This document shows, in pieces, positions 6,359-52,236 of a stretch of 64,000 nucleotides of DNA (positions are counted from its first letter, which is position 1; every line of letters starts with the position of its first letter). Source of the DNA: Candidatus Nitrosotalea sp. TS (lineage in GTDB: Archaea > Thermoproteota > Nitrososphaeria > Nitrososphaerales > Nitrosopumilaceae); contig NZ_RCMB01000009.1 in assembly GCF_011319465.1 (NCBI RefSeq), positions 62,001 to 126,000 of the forward strand, read 5' to 3'. The position numbers were made by a program, and so were the translations under genes. The notes beneath the pieces are model-generated. The model was given only the letters and a program-made list of their open reading frames with translations. It searched no databases and had not been told where the DNA came from.

Positions 6359-7482
6359 ATGTCGTCTGAGGATTTCACAGTAACCCCTTGGAGCGTAGAA
6401 GGCGATATCGATTATGACAAATTGATACAGAAATTTGGCACTGAAAAAATTTCAGACGAGCTGCAGGCACGCGTAAAAAAGATAACAGGCGAGGTTCACC
6501 CGATGCTAAAGCTTGGATATTTTTTCAGCCACAGAGATTTTGATAAAATTTTAACAGAATATGAAAAAGGCAACAAGTTTTACCTGTATACAGGCAGGGG
6601 TCCCTCAGGCTCTATCCACATGGGACATTTGCTGCCATGGATATTTACCAAATATTTGCAAGAAAAATTTGGTGCAAATCCTCATCTTCCAGATTACTGA
6701 CGATGAAAAGTTTTTGTATAATGATGAAAAAGTCATTCCAGGACGTATCAAAGCACACAACAGAGAACATCTATGATATTATAGCAGTAGGGTTTGATCC
6801 AAAAAAGACAAAGATTCTGGTAGATACTAAAGACATCAAGAGGATTTACCCAATAGCACTTGAGATAGCAAAACGCATAACATTTTCAACTGTCAAGGCA
6901 GTCTTTGGATTTCAAAATTCTACAAATATAGGAATGATAGGTTTTCCTCCAATCCAGGCTGCGCCATGCTTTCTTCCGTCAGTCATAGAAGGCAAGCCGA
7001 CACCTGTTCTCATACCTGCTGCAATAGACCAGGATCCATACTGGCGTGTCACACGGGATATTGCAGAAAAGATGGGGTATCCCAAGCCTGCACAGATCCA
7101 CTCTAAATTTCTGCCAGGACTTGGGATGCAGGGAAAAATGTCATCTTCCATTCCAGAGACTGCAATATTTACAACCGATACAGAGGAGGCAATAGACAAA
7201 AAGATCTCAAGTGCATTTACCGGAGGCCAGCCAACTGTAGACATGCAGCGAAAGCTTGGGGCAAACTTTAGCATATGCTCTGTATTTTGGTACCTGCGAT
7301 ACTTTTTTGACACCGAGAAAGAATCAGACGAGCGGGCAAGAAAGTGCAGGGCAGGCGAGCTTCTTTGCGGCGAATGCAAATGCAACCTCAAGGATGCCAC
7401 AAAGCCATTCATTGCAGATTTTAAAAAGAAGCGAGAAAAGGCAAAGGACCAGGTAGACCAGTTCTTGTTTGACAAGTCTTGA
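6359..7482 (+). CDS. trpS: tryptophan--tRNA ligase (two frameshifts)
   Basis: A class I synthetase of archaeal/eukaryal type, about 375 residues. The HIGH-type motif is GPSGSIHMGH near residue 85-95 and the KMSKS equivalent is GKMSSSIPETAIF. The region ITDDEKFLYNDE and AVGFDPKKTKILVDTKDI are standard for TrpRS. The frame shifts near 6688 (FGAN must continue into an IFQITDDEKF frame) and again near 6732 (before SFQDVSKHTTENIYDIIAVG). All parts are conserved, which favours indel errors. An ATG at 7485 of the next gene follows almost immediately, which suggests co-transcription. Confidence 0.9.
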
Positions 7483-17536: not shown

Positions 17537-18393
17537 CTAGTAATTTTTAATCAAAAGTTCAGTGTGGCCAGTTCTTTTCTGGATACAGAGTTTATGAATC
17601 GATTTGCATTTATCTCTATAATACCATCAGAGAACTCGTCGAATAGTTCTATGATTTCATCAGATTTTGAGTTTGATAACAACACCTTGACCCCTTTTTT
17701 GTCTAGTGCCTTGAATTTGGCAAACAGCCTTTCCTGGTCCTCGTAACCGAAATCTTTTCCTGTATAGCTTGTAAAGTTTGCAGTCTCGCTTACTGGCTGG
17801 TATGGCGGGTCCAGGTAGACAAAGTCTCCACTTGATGCATTTTTGAGTGCCCGCTCAAAATCCTGGCATTTAATTGAGATCTCTTTTGATTGTAGTATCT
17901 CGCTTACTGCAAGAAGGTTTTCCTTGTTTACGATATTTGGATTGACATACTTGCCAAGAGGCACATTGAATTTTCCCTTGCTGTTTACCCTATACAGTCC
18001 GTTAAAACATGTCTTGTTGAGAAAGATGAGTTTTGATACCTTATCAATCTGGCCTTTTGGGTTGCTCTCGCGAATCTTGTAATAGTATGAACTTGCGTTC
18101 TTTGAATAATATGCAGAATGCAATTCCAAGGCAGAAATCAATTCTTTTACTCGGTCTCGTATTGTAACATAAGACAAGACTAGATCAGAATTCAAATCAG
18201 AGACAAACCATTTGACACGTCTTTCTTGAGAGACCAGGCTGAAAAACACTGCACCTCCGCCCAAGAATGGTTCAAAATATCTCTCAAACTTTGGAACATG
18301 ATTTGCAATCACAGGCAAGAGTTGTCTTTTTCCTCCAGCCCACTTTACAAAGGGCTTTGGTGTAGATGAAATTAATCTATATTCTTGCTTCAA
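17537..18393 (-). CDS. dam: Dam-type DNA adenine N6-methyltransferase (one C-terminal frameshift)
   Basis: An alpha-type adenine methylase of about 285 residues. The FVKWAGGKRQLLP start, YFEPFLGGGAVFFSL (SAM-binding motif I), FLNKTCFNGLYRVNSKGKFN and catalytic DPPY (FVYLDPPYQP near residue 200) are all present. The protein ends RKELATLNF at 17551 in the given frame, but a single-base change near 17576 restores RKTGHTELLIKNY ending at 17537, the conserved Dam C-terminus. Most members methylate GATC, but the target is not readable here. It is followed by the AbiTii-like gene and no restriction nuclease is next to it. Confidence 0.88.
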
Positions 18394-18531: not shown

Positions 18532-19182
18532 TTAGTCCCATTTAGACCAAGCTGCCATCCATCTGTAAGTCCAGGTTGTTAATTTGCAGCCTAATGCAGT
18601 CATTGTGACTGTCAAAACTGCGCCCGCACCTGCACCTAACGCTACAGGACTATCATAGAACTTTCCGACTTGAGGTTCTATAGGAGTCATGTATGGAGGC
18701 AATGTAGTCCTTGGATACTTGAATGCAGTCTCTAATGGATCATCTATTGTCAATAGATTAACCATGTTAAACATCGACATTGACATTCCACACAGCACAC
18801 CTCCAACCAAGATAAGCATGTGCTTGTTTCTCTTGGTTGCCCAATACGCCAGATCCATCAGTATTGCAGATGGGATCCATATTGGTACAACGATGAAGCT
18901 GTACGGATATCCTAAGGAGAACCACGCACCTTTTGCAATCCATGTATACACTGTCATTATCAGCGCATAGTAGGTTGCTGTTCCTGGTACACCAGTGAAC
19001 GTAAGGTAATATGCTGCACCGACTGCGAGCATCAATGATTGTGATAAAGTGAATATCACATATGATGTCCATGCCCAGTCAGTATAGAAGATGTAGTCTC
19101 CCGCGTTGATTGTCAACAAGGTCGAGTTTACTGCTACCACTACTATGAATAAGTAGTGAGTACATCGTCTTAGCCAGACCAT
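18532..19182 (-). CDS. amoA: ammonia monooxygenase subunit A
   Basis: A 216-residue membrane protein, the usual length for archaeal AmoA, beginning MVWLRRCTHYLFIVVVAVNS and ending TWTYRWMAAWSKWD. Conserved landmarks are NAGDYIFYTDWAWTSYVIF, FTGVPGTATYYALIMTVYTW and YPRTTLPPYMTPIEPQVGKF. With AmoB and AmoC it oxidises ammonia to hydroxylamine at a copper site in the cytoplasmic membrane. The frame is intact. A TATA-like TTTTATATA at about 19206-19216 lies 24-34 bp before the ATG, so the gene can have its own near-leaderless transcript. AmoX and AmoC are upstream on the same strand. Confidence 0.98.
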   Translation of the reverse strand: MVWLRRCTHYLFIVVVAVNSTLLTINAGDYIFYTDWAWTSYVIFTLSQSLMLAVGAAYYLTFTGVPGTATYYALIMTVYTWIAKGAWFSLGYPYSFIVVPIWIPSAILMDLAYWATKRNKHMLILVGGVLCGMSMSMFNMVNLLTIDDPLETAFKYPRTTLPPYMTPIEPQVGKFYDSPVALGAGAGAVLTVTMTALGCKLTTWTYRWMAAWSKWD

Positions 19183-19296
19183 TAGCTACTAATGACTAGG
19201 TGATGTATATAAAATTTTATGATGTACGAGATCAGCATTATAGAAAGCCTAGGCTGAGGCGTATTTAATAAAAGAAAGGAAAAATGGATATTCCTT

Positions 19297-19659
19297 TTAT
19301 CCGAAGAAGAAGCAATCTGTCAAAACTGTTGCGACGGCGATTGCTGCGATCACACCTGCGATAAGACCATTGTATGTCTTTGCCTTATCTGTACCCTCTG
19401 TTGCTACTTTAACACAGAATAGGTATCCAATAGACTCAATGATGGTCAAAACAGTCAGTGCAAAATGTGCACTTGGCGGTGGATATGCCCACGGATAGTA
19501 GGTAACTGCAACGGCAACTCCTCCCCATGTGCCTAGCCACAAGGCAATGAATATGCCTGTGATTGGACCAATGTAGTTCTCTATACGTCTACCAATCATC
19601 TTGGAGACATCAGAACTTGAGGCGCCGCCACCTGAACCGAATCCTTTTGGTAAGGTCAT
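19297..19659 (-). CDS. amoX: AmoX, archaeal AMO-associated membrane protein
   Basis: A 120-residue protein with an N-terminal soluble stretch (GSGGGASSSDVSKMIGRRIE) and three membrane segments: ITGIFIALWLGTWGGVAVAV, HFALTVLTIIESIGYLFCV and AGVIAAIAVATVLTDCFFFG. Its position between amoC and amoA is characteristic of group I.1a ammonia oxidisers, and proteomic work has placed AmoX in the enzyme complex. A TATA-like CTTAAAAGC lies about 30 bp before the ATG. No copper ligand set is obvious. Confidence 0.9.
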   Translation of the reverse strand: MTLPKGFGSGGGASSSDVSKMIGRRIENYIGPITGIFIALWLGTWGGVAVAVTYYPWAYPPPSAHFALTVLTIIESIGYLFCVKVATEGTDKAKTYNGLIAGVIAAIAVATVLTDCFFFG

Positions 19660-19766
19660 TTGGCTTAATTAGAAAGGCATTTGCTTTTAAGTTTTTCCCG
19701 AACGAAAGCACTAATTTCACATTAGTTGATCTCAAAAATAAGAAAAAATGCGCGTTGTGCGCGTGT

Positions 19767-20330
19767 TTATGGGATTGATCTGCTGTACAGTTTGCCTTCT
19801 AAGGCCATCTTGTACATCTCTGCAACGTATGGGTTCTCACCTGGTGTTTCTGCGCCAAGTTCGACAAGACGTGCGTAGACTCTAACTACATAGGCAAGTG
19901 CGCCCATGAATGCTACGACTACACCCATATTGAACATCCAGTGGTTTGGAACTGCAAAGATTTCCTCTACATACCAAAAGTGCCACAATTCATTAACACC
20001 GATTGTAAACATGGTTGCAAGATAACCTAGAATAGTCATCTTAAGACCAGTATTCATCGAGTTGTTTGGACCTCTCAGGATTGGTACCTTTCTGTCATAC
20101 ATTGCTACTGAAGCCCAACCTAATGGTAGAGCAATAAAGTGGCTGTATAACCACCAGTGTGCTGGTGTGAAGGCACTGTCTCTGATGGATGTTTGATGTA
20201 AAGAGCCGTCAACAAAGTTGTCGACCTCTACTGATGCAGCGACAGATCCCATTGCGATGATGATCATCCAGATCTTCTTCAGTCTCTGGATCTCAACTTC
20301 TTTTGGAATAAGTGCCGGCATTTGTGCCAT
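19767..20330 (-). CDS. amoC: ammonia monooxygenase subunit C
   Basis: A 187-residue membrane protein. The Asp/His-rich region DSAFTPAHWWLYSHFIALPL and VNELWHFWYVEEIF contain residues positioned like the copper C/D ligands of the particulate methane monooxygenase family. Hydrophobic segments frame them. Starts MAQMPALIPKEVEIQRLKKI. Frame intact. It is the first gene of amoC-amoX-amoA and diverges from amoB. Confidence 0.97.
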   Translation of the reverse strand: MAQMPALIPKEVEIQRLKKIWMIIIAMGSVAASVEVDNFVDGSLHQTSIRDSAFTPAHWWLYSHFIALPLGWASVAMYDRKVPILRGPNNSMNTGLKMTILGYLATMFTIGVNELWHFWYVEEIFAVPNHWMFNMGVVVAFMGALAYVVRVYARLVELGAETPGENPYVAEMYKMALEGKLYSRSIP

Positions 20331-20595
20331 GTATGGTGAGTTGTTAATTGTTTATTTAAAGTATCAGTTATAGAAACTACAATATTAATTCTATTTATTA
20401 CATATCTAGCCTAAAAATTATAAAATATATCTAACTCCAGAATGAAATACTAGTATTAATTTAGTAGCAAATAATCAATGCCACCATGATGAACATGGAT
20501 GTTAATCATCATTTGCCTCACGTTTATTTCAGATCGACAACAGGCAGGGCAAAACATATATCATTGTTGTTTGTCAGTTGGATTAGTTAAGCGAT
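20331..20595. promoter_or_regulatory. divergent amoC/amoB promoter region
   Basis: This 265-bp gap separates amoC (minus) from amoB (plus). For amoC a TATA-like TTTAAATA on the minus strand spans about 20351-20360, 21-30 bp from the start codon, predicting a near-leaderless mRNA. For amoB, ACATATATC at 20554-20562 lies 35-40 bp upstream of the ATG. The middle is AT-rich and shows no strong palindrome, so no operator is proposed. Confidence 0.6.
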
Positions 20596-21162
20596 ATGGT
20601 CGATAAGAAGTTTATTGTAGCTGCAATCAGTGTGATAGTCGCACTCGGAGCAGTTGGACCATCAGTTGCACAAATGTTCCAACATGCAGAAGCTCACGGT
20701 GTACAGGCACAGCTGCAAAGCCGTTTCGTTAGGATAGACGATGAGACTTGGTCTAAACAATCTGTCCAAACAGGCGATACTCTGACAGACTCTGGCAAGT
20801 TTACGAGCCTCGTAAACAGAGACCTAAGAGGCTGGTACACAGTATACGGTGACTCTCCAAACGCAGGTAACAGATGGGAGATCGTCGCAAGAGATCCACC
20901 TGGAAACGTAATCACGATTCCAGCAAACGGAGTGGTTCCATACAAGCTCACAATTAGAGCTCTAGAACCAGCAGTATATCACATGCATACGCAGCTTAAC
21001 ATAGCAAGCATCGGTCCAGGTCTTGGTCCAGGACAAACAATAGTCGTAACAGGCGACCCAATCGTAAAACCAATTCCATATACAAACATTGTATATCAAT
21101 CAATAATCATTGGAGTCGGTTATGCGGTTACATTTGCAACAAGACCTTGGCAAGTGATTTAG
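20596..21162 (+). CDS. amoB: ammonia monooxygenase subunit B
   Basis: A 188-residue protein with a signal/anchor helix (MVDKKFIVAAISVIVALGAV), a cupredoxin-like extracellular domain and a C-terminal membrane helix (IVYQSIIIGVGYAVTFATRP). Histidines positioned for the copper B site are HAEAHGVQAQ near residue 31-35 and YHMHTQ near residue 131-134. Archaeal AmoB has one cupredoxin domain and is much shorter than bacterial AmoB, as here. The frame is intact. Confidence 0.97.
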   Translation: MVDKKFIVAAISVIVALGAVGPSVAQMFQHAEAHGVQAQLQSRFVRIDDETWSKQSVQTGDTLTDSGKFTSLVNRDLRGWYTVYGDSPNAGNRWEIVARDPPGNVITIPANGVVPYKLTIRALEPAVYHMHTQLNIASIGPGLGPGQTIVVTGDPIVKPIPYTNIVYQSIIIGVGYAVTFATRPWQVI

Positions 21163-23078: not shown

Positions 23079-24587
23079 CTACTCCGCAAACTGCGAGTAT
23101 GCCCTTTCTCCTACTTGTGCCAAGTCTAAGCCTATCTCTTCCTCTTTTGGCGTTACTCTTACACCACCAGGCCAAATTGCATCCTGTATTCTCCATATGA
23201 TGTATGTGATACCAAATGACCATGCTGCACCGAATCCTGCACCTTCACAGTTTATCACAAACTGCATTGGGTTTCCGAAAGAATAGTCCATTGTGACCAT
23301 ACGGATTGATACGTGTTTCGCTAAATGCACCCGTTAAGAGAGCACCAACGTACACCGCCCATTCCGTGTACACCCCAAGTATCTAGAGCATCATCTATTC
23401 TTGCCCTATTCTTTATCAGGACACAATAGAAGCAGACAGTTGCGCATGCAAAGCCTACAATTATTGATGCCCATGTGCCTATGAATCCAGATGCTGGCGT
23501 AATTGCCACAAGTCCGGCTACTGCTCCGTTACAAGCACCTATCGCACTCGCTTTCCCAGTGTGAGCCCAAGCCAAAAACATCCACCAAATTGCTGCAACA
23601 GCTGTTGCAAGGTTTGTGTTTTGGAATGCTTGTGTTTCAAGGAAACCTGCAAATCCTGCGCTTCCTGGGTTGAAACCGAACCAACCGAACCAGAGGAGTA
23701 TAGCACCTAACATGATTAGCGGAATCGAATGAGGTTCAAATGGAGCCTTTCCATAACCTATTCTTCGTCCAAGGAACATGGCTGCAGCTAATCCAGCAAA
23801 ACCTGATGTAATGTGGATGACTGTACCTCCCTGCAAAGTCTTCTGTTCCTATTTTAGCTAACCAACCTACCGAAGTACCCTGACTTCCAAGTGACCAGTT
23901 TGCATGTCCAACAAAGTCGTAGATGAACGTAGTCCATAATACGATGTGTATTAGGAACGCACTCATCTTCACTCTATCAGCATATCCTGCGATTGCTAAT
24001 GCAGGTGTGATAGCAGCGAACATGAGCTGGAACATCACATAGGCCAAATGTGGAATTGTTGGTGCATAAACATCAGCTGGTGCATTATGGAAGACGTTAT
24101 TGAGTCCAACCCAATCCAAGTTTCCAATGAAACCATATGGATCTGCAGATGGACCGAACATGATTGAATAGCCCCAAATGACCCACTGAACGCTGACAAT
24201 TGAATATACCATGAAGTTTTGTAAGATCACCATGAGTGCCTGTTTTCTTCGTGACAAGCCACCGTATAGGAAGCCTACACCTCCCGGAGTCATAATCATG
24301 ACGATACAAGCTGCGATGTACATGAAGGTCGTGTCTCCCGTATCAATACATGGAGCTTCGCTACCACCAAAAGTTCCGTTGCCTGGTGGCGTCATTGCTT
24401 GACCACAGTGAATTTCATTTGTCTTTTGAGGATTGGCAAGATTACCAATCGGACCAAATTGTGCGTTGGCCTCTTGCATTGCAGTGAATCCTGACATTGT
24501 AACAACCAATGTTGCCAGGGCAAAAACGATAGGCCATTTGTGCTTAGATAGTATCTGTAATGGCATTCTCGAGATTGTTTCCGACAT
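23079..24587 (-). CDS. amt: ammonium transporter Amt (two frameshifts)
   Basis: About 500 residues in three abutting frames. A possible signal/leader helix (KWPIVFALATLVVTMSGFTA) precedes the Amt core: TPGGVGFLYGGLSRRKQALM, SVQWVIWGYSIMFG, GGTVIHITSGFAGLAAAMF, FGWFGFNPGSAG and ALDTWGVHGMGG. These include the pore-lining Trp, Phe and paired-histidine regions of the trimeric ammonia channel. Breaks lie near 23830 and 23330. The C-terminus, VRVTPKEEEIGLDLAQVGER, is the part that contacts GlnK in this family. It shares a promoter element with the Cas4-like gene at 27263. It supplies ammonium to the cell and probably cooperates with the glnK product. Confidence 0.93.
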
Positions 24588-24608: not shown

Positions 24609-24650
24609 TCTATAAAAGGTATTTTATCCTAAAAACTTCTTTTTATGATA
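24609..24650 (-). promoter_or_regulatory. amt promoter element shared with the Cas4-like gene
   Basis: The plus-strand string TCTATAAAAGGTATTTTA continuing into TCCTAAAA begins 22 bp upstream of the amt ATG. The same 26 bases start 23 bp upstream of the gene at 27263, and a TATGATA tail recurs in both. On the minus strand this reads as an AGG-N-TAAAATA-CCT near-palindrome next to a TTTTATAGA box. Identical sequence and spacing indicate co-regulation. The regulator is unknown. Confidence 0.6.
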
Positions 24651-24741
24651 CAGTAACAACTGATCGCCATTTTGATCATCAAACATGGTATCATAAAATT
24701 TCAAAAAATCTTAAAAAAAATTATTATACAAGCTACAAAGT

Positions 24742-24912
24742 ATGTTTGACATGGCAGAAGCGGACATAACTATATTCGTTGCAACCGCAGTTGCTCTTGG
24801 AATTACGATTGCCATTTACTTTGGTGAAAGGGCGTATCGATACAAGAGAATCAAAGAAGGCAAACATGTCGGAACTTATGGAATGACATTTGAAGGCGAA
24901 GGCCATCCATAA
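24742..24912 (+). CDS. 56-residue single-span membrane protein
   Basis: ATG at 24742 encodes an N-terminal helix (ADITIFVATAVALGITIAIY) followed by FGERAYRYKRIKEGKHVGTY and GMTFEGEGHP. A basic stretch after the helix predicts a cytoplasmic tail. It is divergent from amt with a 154-bp gap. Not assigned. Its neighbourhood makes a link to nitrogen metabolism possible. Confidence 0.5.
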   Translation: MFDMAEADITIFVATAVALGITIAIYFGERAYRYKRIKEGKHVGTYGMTFEGEGHP

Positions 24913-24984
24913 AATCCACGTTATTTTTAATATTTTCATATCAACAAGATAGATTGATTTACTATAACAGGTTGCATCATTTTA

Positions 24985-25470
24985 ATGAGAATTAATATCG
25001 ATGATGATGAGTACATCACAGCCTCTCTTCCAAAGATTTGGGACATTGCTCACGGATTATCAGGTTTCTTCCATAAAAGCAAGGAAGGAGTTCTTGCATT
25101 AACAAACAAAAACCTGATCTTTGTGCCAAGATTCCTGCAACTCATGTCAAAAGAGAGAGAAAAGTACTTTGGGGATGACAAGGCCAAAGTAACAAAACTT
25201 GCCCATTATTCCGAGGCGGATCTAGATGAGGACATATCCAAGAATTCCAAGAGCTGGATATGCCCGTTAAATTCCCTAGTAGATGCAGAAAGCGTTACAA
25301 TAAGAAAAGTGAATTTTCTGAGAATAACGTTCAAGGATAAAAAAAACCAGTTAAAAAAATATGATTTTGCAATAACAAGATCAGTGATAAGCTACCCACA
25401 GAGACAACCATTGATGTATTATAGCTTGGATTGGACTGACTGGATAAATTTGCTAAAATCACACATGTAG
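24985..25470 (+). CDS. PH/GRAM-like hypothetical protein
   Basis: A 161-residue protein. HKSKEGVLALTNKNLIFVPR and DAESVTIRKVNFLRITFKDK are the paired strands of a bacterial PH/GRAM-like fold, with a final DWTDWINLLKSH helix. No signal peptide. Function unknown. Fold assignment is by pattern only. Confidence 0.5.
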   Translation: MRINIDDDEYITASLPKIWDIAHGLSGFFHKSKEGVLALTNKNLIFVPRFLQLMSKEREKYFGDDKAKVTKLAHYSEADLDEDISKNSKSWICPLNSLVDAESVTIRKVNFLRITFKDKKNQLKKYDFAITRSVISYPQRQPLMYYSLDWTDWINLLKSHM

Positions 25471-25501
25471 TGTTTTCAAAATCTATTTCAGAGATTCGTC
25501 A

Positions 25502-25975
25502 TCAATATTTGTCAGGTCTACTCTGCAGATTCTTAATTGACCTTGACAGTATGAAATCTTGTTCTATTTCAGATTCGGCTGGAAATTTGACGTCCGTGAC
25601 TCTTTTTATATATTTGAATATCTCAAGTTCATATGTTTCTTTTTTTGGGATATACAGTGCAAGCTTCAGATTGGCAGTGCCTTCATAGTCTTCTTTGAAT
25701 TGTTTGTAATGTTCAGAAATCTTGAGAGATTTTAAGAAAACCCATGTAGTTGACAATATGCGTGATTGACAGTAAAGAACAAAGTCATAATTAGACTCTT
25801 TTTCTACAAATCTGATTTTTATCTCATCGTCTGGAAAATATTTTATTATTTTGTTCCAAATATTGCCAACCTTTTTTCTTCCATCAAACATTAGGAAAAT
25901 TGTTGGTTTAACATCATACATGTGGTATCCAAGACCTAGAAAATCATCAAACCAATCAATTTTAGTGTCAACCAT
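25502..25975 (-). CDS. conserved hypothetical protein
   Basis: A 157-residue soluble protein, mixed strands and helices (KPTIFLMFDGRKKVGNIWNK, NLKLALYIPKKETYELEIFK). There are two cysteine-poor halves and no catalytic motif. It converges on the preceding gene with a 31-bp gap. Not recognised. Confidence 0.5.
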   Translation of the reverse strand: MVDTKIDWFDDFLGLGYHMYDVKPTIFLMFDGRKKVGNIWNKIIKYFPDDEIKIRFVEKESNYDFVLYCQSRILSTTWVFLKSLKISEHYKQFKEDYEGTANLKLALYIPKKETYELEIFKYIKRVTDVKFPAESEIEQDFILSRSIKNLQSRPDKY

Positions 25976-26085
25976 ACAAAACGTTTGAAAACATTTACTG
26001 TATTTAACATTAGACCTATTGAACTATTATTCATAATGAAACATTAGAAAGCTACATTATATACAAGAGTTGAATTTTTTACATA

Positions 26086-26296
26086 TTGAAACCAAGCAGA
26101 AAAAGTGTAGATGAAATTCTCAGTATGTCTGAGAGAGAACTGAAGCCAGTATCTCAGAGAAACTGACAATACGTTACAACCAACAGACTCGATTAAGATA
26201 ATGCCTTTTGAACATGGAATCAAGGCACTCTACTATCACAAAGATCTGCCAAAACCGTACAAAACTCGCGTTTTCCTCAAGAATGATGAGAATTAA
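26086..26296 (+). CDS. short protein, possibly frameshifted
   Basis: From a TTG at 26086 the frame encodes KPSRKSVDEILSMSERELKP and stops near 26166. A second frame continues with SIKIMPFEHGIKALYYHKDL and TRVFLKNDEN to 26296. If joined, about 69 residues. Support is limited to coherent composition across the break; this could also be non-coding. Confidence 0.3.
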
Positions 26297-26344
26297 TTTA
26301 TTGAAATATAGGAGTACATAATTCTACTCTGCATAATTAGATCT

Positions 26345-26494
26345 GTGGGAAATAAGCAACTAGTTACAAGATACAAATATGTCACACTGGCAATTGGAGG
26401 CATGGAATATCTAGTTACACCGTACGAATGGATTCCAGAAAATTCAGTTGTGATCAGAGATGAAAAATCAAATACAATTATTGGTATTCCATAA
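26345..26494 (+). CDS. 49-residue hypothetical protein
   Basis: A GTG-started frame encodes NKQLVTRYKYVTLAIGGMEY followed by LVTPYEWIPENSVVIRDEKS and a GIP end. The strand-rich short fold has no clear relatives in memory. Convergent with the Cas4-like gene (24 bp apart). Confidence 0.35.
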   Translation: MGNKQLVTRYKYVTLAIGGMEYLVTPYEWIPENSVVIRDEKSNTIIGIP

Positions 26495-26517
26495 AATAAA
26501 AGTATAAAAAAGTGTAG

Positions 26518-27263
26518 TTATAGGATGCTGTCTTTGGGTTTAAGTTCGCGCCATTTTCCACGAGCCCAGAATCCCCACTTTACCTTGTCCTCAGATGTGT
26601 AGTAACATTTTTCGTTATGAGGACATTCGAGGCATTTCTCTGATGGTTCGATTGTAGGAGCTACATTATTTTTCAACAATGTGTTCAATATACGAGCTCT
26701 ACGTTTGGTTTCACCCATGAGTCTGTTACTTCTTGGAACTTGGAATTCCATTTCATTTCCTTCCTTGTCGAAGTAGACAATCACTCCTTCAGGTTTGTCA
26801 AACATGTGCAGATACGAATTCAGTTGTATGAAGTGTTCTGGATATGGCATTTCTGGTAATTCATCTACTGCCTTGAACACCATCGCTACATCGTCTTCAA
26901 CTCTTTCTGCTGTACCAACTAGTTTTACGCCAGAGCCTGCATCAAGTTCTCCCGTTACGGGTTTTTCCATGATGCTCAATGCACTCTTTTGCATAATTTT
27001 TGACATCATCTGTTTGTGACTTTTCTCAGATGGATCTTTCTATCCAGATATGAAGCTCGCAAGCAACCGCTGACCTCATCAACTGTTACTTTACCTTCGT
27101 CAGCTACTGTTGGATTAATTGCTGCAAAAACTTCTTCTATCACATCATAGACGTCAAATTTTGGTGCTGCGTCACCTGCTGCTCTGTAGTTATCTATTCC
27201 TTGTTTGAGCTTTTCTTGAACTTTTCCTACGATTGGAACCTTCTTGACTTTAGATTCGCTCAT
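26518..27263 (-). CDS. degenerate Cas4/PD-(D/E)XK-nuclease-like protein (one frameshift)
   Basis: About 248 residues in two frames joined near 27045 (YLDRK into DPSEKSHKQMMSKIM). VDEVSGCLRASYLDRK holds the first cysteine. The core is KLVGTAERVEDDVAMVFKAV then PEHFIQLNSYLHMF. The end is EKCLECPHNEKCYY, giving the four-cysteine iron-sulphur layout of Cas4/AddB-like nucleases. In active members the core has an aspartate after GxA/I and an E-x-K pair; here these read GTAE and V-F-K, so the nuclease chemistry looks lost. Located between amt and glnK with an amt-like promoter. No CRISPR array or other cas gene is present. Confidence 0.55.
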
Positions 27264-27285
27264 TCTTTCAAAATTGGGATTTTGT

Positions 27286-27326
27286 TCTATAAAAGGTATT
27301 TTATCCTAAAATTATCTTTCTATGAT
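27286..27326 (-). promoter_or_regulatory. promoter element of Cas4-like gene, twin of the amt element
   Basis: Carries the same 26 bases as the amt promoter, at 23 bp from the start codon instead of 22, followed by an AT-rich stretch and the same TATGATA. On the minus strand a TTTTATAGA box is 24-32 bp from the ATG, compatible with near-leaderless initiation; AGGATAAAATACCT just upstream is an imperfect palindrome. Confidence 0.6.
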
Positions 27327-27399
27327 ATTAGTTCTTCTTGAATATACTTCTAAGCAATAATTTTAATAAAAGCATTTCATAGTTGCAATGAATCTAGCT

Positions 27400-27741
27400 A
27401 TGAAGAAAATAGAAGCTGTAATTCCAGAAGACAAGTTAGAGCCAGTCTTTAGTGCATTAACGCAACTTGACATCGGTGGCTTCACATATTTCACAGCAAA
27501 AGGTAGAGGAAAAAGACCAAGAGAGATGGTCTCATCCGGTAGAAGTGGACGATTTCAATCTGCCTATAATGTGAACATAAACATCTATGTGGTAGTACAC
27601 GATAACATGGTGGACAAAGTTGTGGATGCCATAACATCTCATGCAAGTACTGGCATGTCAGGTGAAGGCAAGATATTCATCTATAATGTAGATGACGCCA
27701 TAGATGTAGGAACCAAGAAGCGCGGCGAGTCCTCACTCTAA
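27400..27741 (+). CDS. glnK: nitrogen regulatory protein P-II
   Basis: A 113-residue P-II protein starting MKKIEAVIPEDKLEPVFSAL. The T-loop region is GRGKRPREMVSSGRSGRFQS and the C-terminal signature is KIFIYNVDDAIDVGTKKRGE. P-II trimers sense 2-oxoglutarate and ATP/ADP and plug Amt. The T-loop lacks the tyrosine that proteobacterial GlnD uridylylates, so regulation is probably by ligand binding only. It lies beside the Cas4-like gene, divergent, and 2.8 kb from amt. Confidence 0.92.
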   Translation: MKKIEAVIPEDKLEPVFSALTQLDIGGFTYFTAKGRGKRPREMVSSGRSGRFQSAYNVNINIYVVVHDNMVDKVVDAITSHASTGMSGEGKIFIYNVDDAIDVGTKKRGESSL

Positions 27742-28445: not shown

Positions 28446-28715
28446 CTACCAGTATTTGCCGTTGTCTGGTATCAGACCAATACCTTCGCGCTCAAAGTGC
28501 TTATCGAGTTCTGCCACCCATCTTTCGCGGACAGCGCTTTGACCCAATCCGTGGGCTCTGAGCCAGAAAGCAATGACGCCGAGTAAGAATACTGCGAACA
28601 TCATCGTTGCAAATATGTAGGTCATGACGTCGTAAAAGAGCGGGTCATAGTTTGGACCTATTTGACCTGCAAAGTTAGATAGCATGCCTACGAGCATGAA
28701 TATCGCGCTCATCAT
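28446..28715 (-). CDS. small two-span membrane protein, candidate AmoY/AmoZ
   Basis: An 89-residue protein (from ATG 28715) with two hydrophobic segments (MSAIFMLVGMLSNFAGQI and YIFATMMFAVFLLGVIAFWL) and a conserved-looking soluble tail (WVAELDKHFEREGIGLIPDN). Two further AMO subunits, AmoY and AmoZ, were proposed for archaea from native-complex proteomics and are encoded next to each other. This gene and the next form such an adjacent pair near amoABCX and have the right size and topology. I cannot confirm which, or either, by alignment. Confidence 0.55.
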   Translation of the reverse strand: MMSAIFMLVGMLSNFAGQIGPNYDPLFYDVMTYIFATMMFAVFLLGVIAFWLRAHGLGQSAVRERWVAELDKHFEREGIGLIPDNGKYW

Positions 28716-28811
28716 ATTATTCAAAACAATTTATGTACGATATATACATTTCTGTGGGATTTGGCAAGGCAGATCCCTGCAATAAATAATAAAATAAGAA
28801 AAAGAGAAGAT

Positions 28812-29124
28812 CTAGTGCTGTTTTCTTGCTTTTTCCACTTGCTTTGCTCTTACGACGAAAGCAATGAAGATTCCGCCGAATATTGCGCCAGAGATAATTG
28901 TTGCGCCAATGACTCCATTAGCGTCAAGGTATGGCGTACCAGAACCAGCGTGTGGATTTGCTTGTACATCAGCTATTCTTGATCGCGCTAGCTTCAGCTG
29001 CTCTTCTAGGAGTAACCGTACCACCGCCTCCCACACCTGCGTACTGTGCCGCAGCGTATGGAGCAAATGATGAGACTACGAAGAGAGTGAGTAGTGCAGC
29101 TCCAATAATTATTGGTTTGTTCAT
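28812..29124 (-). CDS. small exported membrane protein, candidate AmoY/AmoZ (one frameshift)
   Basis: From ATG 29124 a signal peptide is read (MNKPIIIGAALLTLFVVSSF, then AAAQYAG). After a break near 29012 the frame continues as EEQLKLARSRIADVQANPHA, followed by a C-terminal helix (GVIGATIISGAIFGGIFIAF) and a basic end (KQVEKARKQH). The mature protein would be outside with a single anchor, about 80 residues. It is paired with the preceding gene (96 bp apart). Confidence 0.55.
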
Positions 29125-29231
29125 TCTATAGCACCTACTCAAAATGACTTCTGTTGATATTTAACTCTTATGCAATCTGGAGCATCCGATCTGCAAGTAA
29201 CATTTATGTTTGCTGAAAAAACAAGCGCTTC

Positions 29232-49894: not shown

Positions 49895-50746
49895 TTGGAT
49901 AGAAAAAACTTTGAGATCAATCCTTTAATCAAAGACTACAAAAACTATATTGATTCAATAAATCAAGCACTTAAAAAAGAACTGGAACTTTATTCCGCTT
50001 CAGAATTTTTCGAACCCCTGCAATATGCACTTGAGGGAGGAAAAAGAATAAGACCGATCATTCTTGTCTTGGCTGCTGAAAGTGTTGGCAAGTGTAACGA
50101 ACATGCTTTCATTGCAGCTTGCGCAGTTGAACTATTACACACCGAGTCTGTAATTCACGACGATATAATCGATAATGAGATTCTAAGAAGGCGAAAGGAT
50201 CCATTTCACATCAAGTATGGATATAACACGAGTATAATGACTGGCGATTTTGTTCTGGGATTAATCTTGAACATATCCTCACGTCTTGACAATTCACGAA
50301 TAGCAAGAGAACTTGCCAACACTGCCATGATGATGAGTGATGGCGAGATGATAGAAACAAGGCTAGAGACAAGCGAGGATATCACCTTTGATGACTATCT
50401 CAAAGTAATCGAATACAAGACAGCTACCGCATTTGAGGCAGCAACAAAGATTGGCGCCATCCTAGGCGGAGGCAATGAAGAACAAATCATGGCATTTGCG
50501 GAATACGGTAAGAACATGGGAATTGCCTACCAGATTCGCGACGATTTACAGGATTGGAATAACGAAGACAAGCTATTCAATACATTGATTAAGAAAAGCT
50601 CAGACCCGCGTAATGTTTTTGATCATATGGACATGTTGCTAACCAATTATTCAAAGAAAGCAAAGATAGCACTTCGAAAAATGGATGACGGTCCTGCAAG
50701 AAGAAGACTTGAGAGTCTGCTAGATCTTACTATGCTTAATGTATAG
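49895..50746 (+). CDS. polyprenyl (GGPP) synthase
   Basis: A 283-residue all-helical prenyltransferase from TTG. YALEGGKRIRPIILVLAAES, the first aspartate-rich motif ESVIHDDIIDNEILRRRKDP and the second YQIRDDLQDWNNEDKLFN are clear. It makes geranylgeranyl diphosphate for ether lipids (FPP/GGPP specificity not determinable). Its 3' end overlaps nuoN by 11 bp. Confidence 0.9.
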   Translation: MDRKNFEINPLIKDYKNYIDSINQALKKELELYSASEFFEPLQYALEGGKRIRPIILVLAAESVGKCNEHAFIAACAVELLHTESVIHDDIIDNEILRRRKDPFHIKYGYNTSIMTGDFVLGLILNISSRLDNSRIARELANTAMMMSDGEMIETRLETSEDITFDDYLKVIEYKTATAFEAATKIGAILGGGNEEQIMAFAEYGKNMGIAYQIRDDLQDWNNEDKLFNTLIKKSSDPRNVFDHMDMLLTNYSKKAKIALRKMDDGPARRRLESLLDLTMLNV

Positions 50747-52223
50747 TAGGAAGACTTGTAAGAACTGGTACAGCTGATTTTGCAAGTGCAATGAACGGAC
50801 CTGGATACACTCCAATTCCAACCATGAAGATTATTGAAAATATCATGACAGCTATTATGGATCTTGGTTCTTTCACTCTCTTTTCAGATTCGCCTTCTTC
50901 AAAGTACATCTTTCGTATTATCCAACCATAGTATGCAAGAGATAGTGCACTGTTCAACACTCCTGCGACAGCCAAGTATGGTGCCCATGGTATTGATGTA
51001 CCAGCATTTATCGCAGCTCCGAAACAACATGAGCTTACTCCAAAATCCATTGAGTGGTGGAACTCCTGCTAAAGCTAAAAGGGATATGACTAGACCAAGC
51101 GAAGTAATTGGCATTCGTTTTCCAAGTCCGCGAAGCTTGTCAATGTGAGTGACAGATAGTGTTACGGCTATTCCCTGCCACAGCTATGAACGCCGCAGCT
51201 TTCATGACAGCGTGGTTTAGAATATGGAATAGTGCAGCTGCAATACCAATTGCAGTAAATGGAGCAATGCTCAAGCCAATCAGAATGTATCCAGCATGAC
51301 CGATGCTAGAGTATGCAAGCATTCTTGAGATGCTTTTCTGCCTAATAGCTGCCAGGTTTCCCCAAGTCATAGTGACTATGGCTATTACAGCAAGGGCAAG
51401 AGACCAGTTGAAGATTAAGGGCTATTGCACCCATTACTATTACACGTAGAGCCGCAGCAAAGCCAGCTTTTTTCGTTCCTGCTGCAAGCAATGCAGCGAT
51501 TGTTGGCGGCGACCCTTCATACGTATCTGGAAGCCACATGTGGAAAGGTACAAGACCGATTTTGAATCCAAATCCTGCTATGAACATTCCAACTGCCAGT
51601 ATGGCCAAGGGTAACAGGTCTGGGCTTAGATGCGAAAATCCATTTATCACTTGTTCGATATTGGTTGAACCCGTAAGACCGTATGCTATTGATATTCCCC
51701 AGAGAATTATTCCTGAAGATAGTGCACCAAACAAAAAGTATTTGATAGCTGCTTCATTTGAGGTTGGATCCTTTTTGTGAAACCCAGCCAAGACATAAGT
51801 TGGAATGCTCATCAATTCCCAAGCAACAAATAACATTACTAGATCAGTCGAATATGCAATCAACACCATTCCTATTGACGATAATACTATCAGGGAATAG
51901 TAGACAGCTGGATTCCCTTTTCCTTTCATGTAATTGAATGAACCAACTGTTGTCATTATGCCGACTATCAACATTGCAATTGCAAAGAAAGATCCAAACA
52001 TGTCGTTTGCAAGTACGTCCTTTGAGAAAATTGCTGCAGGTGTAACATGGTGTGAAATTATTTGATATACAACAAATGCAATTGCAGCAGCTAACGCACC
52101 AAATGCAATTCCGCCATAAAGTGAATCGTTTTTCTCTTTTCTTACTACGCTAATTACTGGAATGAGTACGCCGACAGCTCCTAGCATCAGAGTTAGAATT
52201 ATTGGGGTTGAGGTAAAGTCCAT
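50736..52223 (-). CDS. nuoN: complex I subunit N (at least three frameshifts)
   Basis: About 495 residues across four frame pieces. LVMLFVAWELMSIPTYVLAG and GFGFKIGLVPFHMWLPDTYE are antiporter-like landmarks. Continuations are QKSISRMLAYSSIGHAGYI, then LGLVISLLALAGVPPLNGFW (LSLAGIPP-type motif), then LNSALSLAYYGWIIRKMYFE. Breaks near 51400, 51150 and 51055. Proton-pumping membrane subunit. Last gene in the operon. Confidence 0.88.
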
Positions 52224-52236
52224 CATATTTTTTCAC

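Follow-up and report, generated by a model that had tools for sequence, protein, structure and literature searches.

Paired inverted-repeat promoters link an ammonium transporter gene and a Cas4-like gene in Nitrosotalea, with a small structured RNA as a probable third target

The nearest working model for the locus considered here is the NrpR regulon of methanogens, together with sRNA154 (PMC3177094, PMC9765008). The genes themselves are already on record: two papers describe or draw Amt2, the high-affinity ammonium transporter, and show it linked to Cas4, sulfurtransferase and atp genes (PMC6863869, PMC4836417). Wang et al. report that the V-type ATPase replaced the A-type in Nitrosotalea, and name HA-Amt, Cas4 and sulfT beside the atp operon (PMC6863869). 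In N. devanaterra a single high-affinity Amt2 is reported, with a PII gene close by (PMC4836417). The papers searched yielded no description of an operator, a regulator or a small RNA for ammonium uptake in ammonia-oxidizing archaea. Here, a stretch of 64,000 nucleotides (nt) from Candidatus Nitrosotalea sp. TS, referred to as the window, was analysed, in which the same promoter element precedes amt, encoding an Amt2-type transporter, and cas4L, encoding a Cas4-like iron-sulfur (Fe-S) protein. It is likely that both elements are copies of a single regulated promoter, at which a dimeric protein would act on an inverted repeat to control a small regulon of amt2, cas4L, a structured RNA and a gene for a protein of 225 amino acids (aa), probably in response to a nitrogen signal.

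The initial annotation of this DNA had reported two identical 26-base strings, equally placed before two genes and without a third copy, and all of this was borne out. The string TCTATAAAAGGTATTTTATCCTAAAA is present at 24609-24634 and 27286-27311, in each case 22-23 bp upstream of a minus-strand start codon, that of amt (24587) and that of cas4L (27263), and when up to three mismatches were allowed the window contained two matches against 0.27 expected. The whole genome from which the window was taken, an incomplete assembly of 1.54 Mb, also holds only these two copies. When 151 genomes of the family were searched with up to three mismatches, matches were concentrated in the window's genus (g1, Nitrosotalea) and in g6 (g6, g8 and g11 being other genera of the family), mostly as pairs on one strand separated by 2.5-3.4 kb, or singly on each of two short contigs. 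When 84,980 species genomes were scanned for a 21-mer of slight degeneracy, 45 stretches were returned, five of which were unrelated chance matches (three Clostridia-type records, one Bacteroidales and one other archaeon); all of the remaining ones were amt or cas4L promoters of Nitrosotalea and its relatives, with the ATG 23-25 bp downstream. In the closed genome of N. devanaterra, the amt and cas4L promoters scored 53.0 and 50.7 bits, respectively, and the next independent site 19.2. In nearly every checkable genome of Nitrosotalea and two sister genera, the element is found at exactly amt and cas4L. The range suggested earlier for it, the Nitrosopumilales, was too wide, as the full element is confined to these three genera and the other genera have, between amt and the gene of a 218-aa protein, a site that is related to it but distinct.

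The putative operator within this element is the inverted repeat TATCATAAAA-N6-TTTTAGGATA, which has 10-nt arms and a 6-nt spacer, spans 26 nt and ends 7 nt before the TATA box TTTTATAG. The transcription factor B recognition element (BRE) lies between the two, and the parts of both promoters are as follows:

24625 to 24650, minus strand: putative amt operator, TATCATAAAA-AGAAGT-TTTTAGGATA, 9 of 10 arm positions paired, conserved across Nitrosotalea
24618 to 24624, minus strand: amt BRE region, AAATACC, 7 nt, between the operator and the TATA box, mean identity 0.93 in relatives
24610 to 24617, minus strand: amt TATA box, TTTTATAG, about 27 nt before the ATG in a leaderless geometry, identical in all aligned relatives
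27302 to 27327, minus strand: putative cas4L operator, TATCATAGAA-AGATAA-TTTTAGGATA, 8 of 10 arm positions paired, conserved
27295 to 27301, minus strand: cas4L BRE region, AAATACC, 7 nt, mean identity 0.97 in relatives
27287 to 27294, minus strand: cas4L TATA box, TTTTATAG, identical in all aligned relatives

The alignment of 30 amt and 27 cas4L promoters gave the consensus ATAnTATCAYAAAAAA-n-TTTTAGGATAAAATRCCTTTTATAG, followed by 22-25 nt to the ATG. As in an archaeal TATA/BRE promoter, TTTTATAG is invariant in all 57, and a leaderless start is predicted from the geometry. Mean identity reached 1.00 in the TATA box, was 0.93-0.97 over the 7 nt preceding it and 0.83-0.88 over the next 26 nt, and fell to 0.38-0.66 further upstream. 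In all three target groups (amt, cas4L and the RNA described below), the arms are kept (mostly 0.87-0.99) and the spacer is variable (0.62-0.70), with a mean of 8.4-8.5 of 10 arm positions paired. The TATGATA described earlier as a tail of the string is the other arm of this repeat. The pattern TATCMTAAAA-N6-TTTTAKGATA is matched perfectly at just three places in N. devanaterra, upstream of amt2, of cas4L and of a structured RNA, and the next best site has three mismatches; other spacers from 0 to 15 gave no site with fewer than two mismatches in that genome, and a reversed control pattern gave zero sites in 121 genomes. A large regulon in N. devanaterra was rejected, given that the two full elements have no close competitor by score and that perfect repeats number only three. 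The site was also absent from the two other amt genes of this organism.

The third perfect repeat of N. devanaterra is located between ileS and a sucC-like gene; downstream of it come the same 7-nt interval, a TATA-like box and an RNA of about 60 nt (fold z = -3.4). A covariance model built from 13 copies finds this RNA in 18 of 22 Nitrosotalea genomes, including the window's own (G000:C4:69182-69258, outside the window), and finds no match in other genera. In an alignment of 19 copies fitted to the model, six pairs changed on both sides and the covariation score was 0.187, versus 0.107 +/- 0.009 for shuffled alignments and at most 0.061 for slid pairings; the original, unfitted MAFFT alignment gives the same picture. 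The stem is interrupted by an 8-nt bulge containing an invariant GGCAAGA. Of the 19 copies, 18 have the operator upstream, where it generally shows 0-2 mismatches but 4-5 in two cases, and the repeat is kept here beside BRE and TATA sequences that differ from those of amt and cas4L. Some members of the genus have the RNA in the direction of the sucC-like gene and the rest have it pointing the opposite way, with the operator kept in both arrangements. Since the operator is retained while the orientation to the neighbour flips, the RNA, which is presumed to be transcribed, probably forms a transcription unit of its own. A role as leader of the sucC-like gene was considered unlikely, because the RNA faces away from that gene in about half of the genomes. 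Rfam curated models gave no match at the RNA in four loci, no tRNA or tmRNA was recognized in it, and a target search with the invariant GGCAAGA returned many matches and no signal.

A weaker site is found upstream of the 225-aa protein gene, which is present in 35 of 37 Nitrosotalea genomes. It consists of a conserved TATGATAnTATCAYAAAA-N6 followed by a degenerate right arm, located in the N. devanaterra group 6 nt before TATAAAAG, and this gene is probably a fourth target with a weaker operator. The protein is conserved across the family. In other genera, the orthologue (about 218 aa) diverges from amt and heads an operon in the order 218 aa, ATPase subunit C, 78 aa and cas4L, and a rhodanese gene follows amt. 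Between amt and the 218-aa gene, the intergenic region of almost all genera examined contains TATGWTAnTATC or a near variant of it, and only a few other such sites exist per genome. A gene that diverges from a target and carries the operator itself occupies the classic position of a regulator, and the 218-225-aa protein can therefore be hypothesized as the candidate regulator. This role is kept at that strength because no database assigns a DNA-binding domain to the protein, although a winged helix, read by eye only, is possible.

The gene order of the other genera, where amt, the 218-aa gene and the cas4L operon adjoin, indicates that the link between amt and cas4L is ancestral. In Nitrosotalea, the 225-aa gene, the rhodanese gene and the ATPase genes are still together, and amt and cas4L are now found in the amo region, in agreement with the reported distance of 11-12 genes between amoYZ and amoABCX in Nitrosotalea versus 1-2 in most other Nitrosopumilaceae (PMC10030591). 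The ancestor would have had a single divergent intergenic region between amt and an operon ending in cas4L. In the Nitrosotalea line the locus would then have been rearranged, possibly as a result of the ATPase exchange, and cas4L, which appears to have lost its operon promoter, would have kept the link by gaining a copy of the amt promoter.

In the mechanism proposed, the operator, which ends 7 nt before the TATA box with the BRE region in the gap, would be centred near -50, and transcription would begin about 27 nt downstream at a leaderless start. A dimeric DNA-binding protein is expected to bind the repeat and set the output of a regulon comprising amt2, cas4L and the structured RNA of about 60 nt, plus the conserved 225-aa gene through its weaker site. 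An activator would fit better than a repressor, because the site sits upstream of the BRE, clear of the TATA box. The signal would likely be ammonia or nitrogen status, a plausible choice since the main target is a high-affinity Amt.

Conservation of the shared element could also reflect a binding site other than the repeat, or history instead of control. The palindrome AGGATAAAATACCT, which the initial annotation had named as the operator, is strongly conserved at both promoters. However, it is half of the true repeat plus the BRE region and is palindromic only at its AGG/CCT ends, three base pairs each, and the RNA promoter retains the repeat but not AAATACC; binding of a protein to this palindrome is thus scarcely credible. 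More substance can be given to the proposal that cas4L lost its operon promoter and captured a copy of the strong amt promoter, and that gene conversion keeps the two alike, so that their likeness would speak of history and promoter strength and not of regulation. Within each of two g6 genomes (G005 and G057), amt and cas4L have promoters that match exactly through ATGTCTGGAG, and those of g8 (L183) are nearly identical up to the start codon, which points to promoter copying and gene conversion between sites 3 kb apart. Moreover, amt2 is very highly expressed in N. devanaterra (PMC4836417). In the N. devanaterra group, on the other hand, the promoters differ at a fixed base (TGCC versus TACC) and in the stretch before the ATG, and therefore evolve separately while the operator is kept, so that conversion is not what keeps it. 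In addition, core strength and conversion fail to explain why the repeat also precedes the unrelated RNA promoter and, in a weaker form, the 225-aa gene. Copying without shared control was consequently judged improbable.

A stronger competitor, which is nevertheless the less probable reading, accepts the operator and its regulon as real and replaces nitrogen with pH, energy state or redox state as the signal. It is consistent with the ancestral atp neighbourhood and an Fe-S type target, with the operon that cas4L shares with ATPase subunit C in other genera, with the absence of the site from glnK and with the transcription of N. devanaterra, which tracked nitrification activity (PMC4836417). 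It is opposed by observations in N. maritimus under low ammonia or starvation, where the high-affinity amt stays highly expressed and the low-affinity amt falls (PMC7490402). Co-regulation by a nitrogen-responsive protein also has points against it. The A/T-rich arms and runs inflate the apparent symmetry of the repeat, for which reason specificity is the stronger argument; the copying or conversion seen in g6 and g8 weakens identity alone as proof of control; the RNA went unmatched in four of the 22 Nitrosotalea genomes; searches of Pfam, PDB, PHROGs and NCBIfam with the 218-225-aa protein returned nothing, and it has no detectable DNA-binding domain; and the promoter of glnK, a gene for which nitrogen control would be expected, has no operator at the standard position. 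Even so, co-regulation of amt and cas4L is well supported by the paired elements in three genera, the whole-genome specificity, a third and a probable fourth unit and the ancestral linkage, and the claim of co-control stands apart from the operator first named for it. In Nitrosotalea, amt, cas4L and the structured RNA are probably switched together.

The genes at the locus are the following:

23079 to 24587, minus strand: amt, high-affinity ammonium transporter (Amt2 type), PF00909 match, frameshifted near 23830 and 23330
26518 to 27263, minus strand: cas4L, Cas4-like Fe-S protein gene with a degenerate nuclease motif, frameshifted near 27006
27388 to 27741, plus strand: glnK (P-II), PF00543 match, divergent from cas4L

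Both amt and cas4L are intact in relatives (248-250 aa for cas4L), and the best match of amt is the amt of the atp neighbourhood in other genera. The frameshifts in these and several other genes are most likely indel errors of the assembly; four frameshift-split genes (23079-24587, 26518-27263, 6359-7482 and 50736-52226) are whole in relatives or would be expected to be whole. The term "degenerate" applied earlier to cas4L is therefore inappropriate for the break in the window and appropriate for the nuclease motif, which is lost in all relatives. Likewise, glnK does lack the element in the standard position, but instead of lying between amt and cas4L, as first described, it is located beyond cas4L. 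The cas4L gene occurs as a single copy in almost every genome (62 of 67 sampled, in 21 of 22 genera). Its product conserves four Fe-S cysteines, the first Cys plus C-x2-C-x5-C, which predict a cluster. In the PD-(D/E)xK motif the Asp is kept and ExK is changed to hydrophobic-x-Arg/Lys throughout, in all Nitrosopumilaceae examined, and QxxxY is retained in g6 and g8 only. Cas4L is thus related to Cas4 and probably has no nuclease activity. A structure prediction with a mean predicted local distance difference test (pLDDT) score of 39.8 was not used.

In one g11 genome, a one-mismatch repeat TATCATAAAA-N6-TATTATGATA (L280 1501-1526) lies beyond the 3' end of cas4L and before the next gene. Genes for amoY-like and amoZ-like small membrane proteins were identified at 28446-28724 and 28812-29142, both on the minus strand, and the amt-cas4L-glnK block separates them from amoABCX (18532-21162), an arrangement already reported for Nitrosotalea (PMC10030591). 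The immediate neighbour of amoA is a gene for a Dam-like DNA adenine methylase (17551-18393, minus strand).

The original observation was correct and valuable; its operator, its position for glnK and its range have been revised, and its core, co-control, now has firmer support and takes in a new RNA. Together, a delimited 26-bp site, a small set of targets, a candidate for the regulator and a new family of RNA give a concrete handle on the regulation of ammonium uptake in acid-soil ammonia-oxidizing archaea, which can be tested in cultured Nitrosotalea or with purified parts. The regulatory link was apparently preserved through a locus rearrangement by promoter copying, and the findings suggest that the conserved Cas4-like protein of ammonia-oxidizing archaea serves nitrogen or energy metabolism and not CRISPR. 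Tentatively, a broader possibility can be put forward, in which a dedicated ammonium-uptake regulon in these archaea is run by the uncharacterised 218-225-aa family and in Nitrosotalea governs the high-affinity Amt, a Cas4-like Fe-S protein without nuclease activity and a new small RNA, through which control would reach beyond transcription.

The Nitrosotalea system resembles the NrpR regulon in its putative operator, a palindrome whose half-sites stand 6 nt apart (GGTA-N6-TACC in M. mazei), and in having a gene for a small RNA among the putative targets. However, only the spacer length of TATCATAAAA-N6-TTTTAGGATA agrees with GGTA-N6-TACC, no nif or glnA target was seen for the Nitrosotalea repeat, and NrpR represses, whereas the position of the Nitrosotalea site suggests activation. 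The NRD domain of NrpR (PF01995) was found in both methanogen controls and in none of 41 genomes of the family, the window's own included. Membership in the NrpR regulon was rejected, because NrpR is absent and the operator differs. With respect to the Cas4 family and solo-Cas4 proteins (PMC5704561), Cas4L shows a weak profile match over its C-terminal half and the same cysteine pattern, but it falls below the cut-offs of the curated models (20.8-34.1 bits for TIGR00372, cut-off 65; 13.5-16.7 for PF01930, cut-off 22.7), its ExK is replaced and its conserved neighbours are amt and atp genes. Finally, in the passages found on the Amt2 neighbourhood, the transporter and its linkage are present and no operator, promoter copy, regulon or RNA is mentioned (PMC6863869, PMC4836417); this locus differs further in that Nitrosotalea amt and cas4L now reside in the amo region, each behind its own copy of the element.
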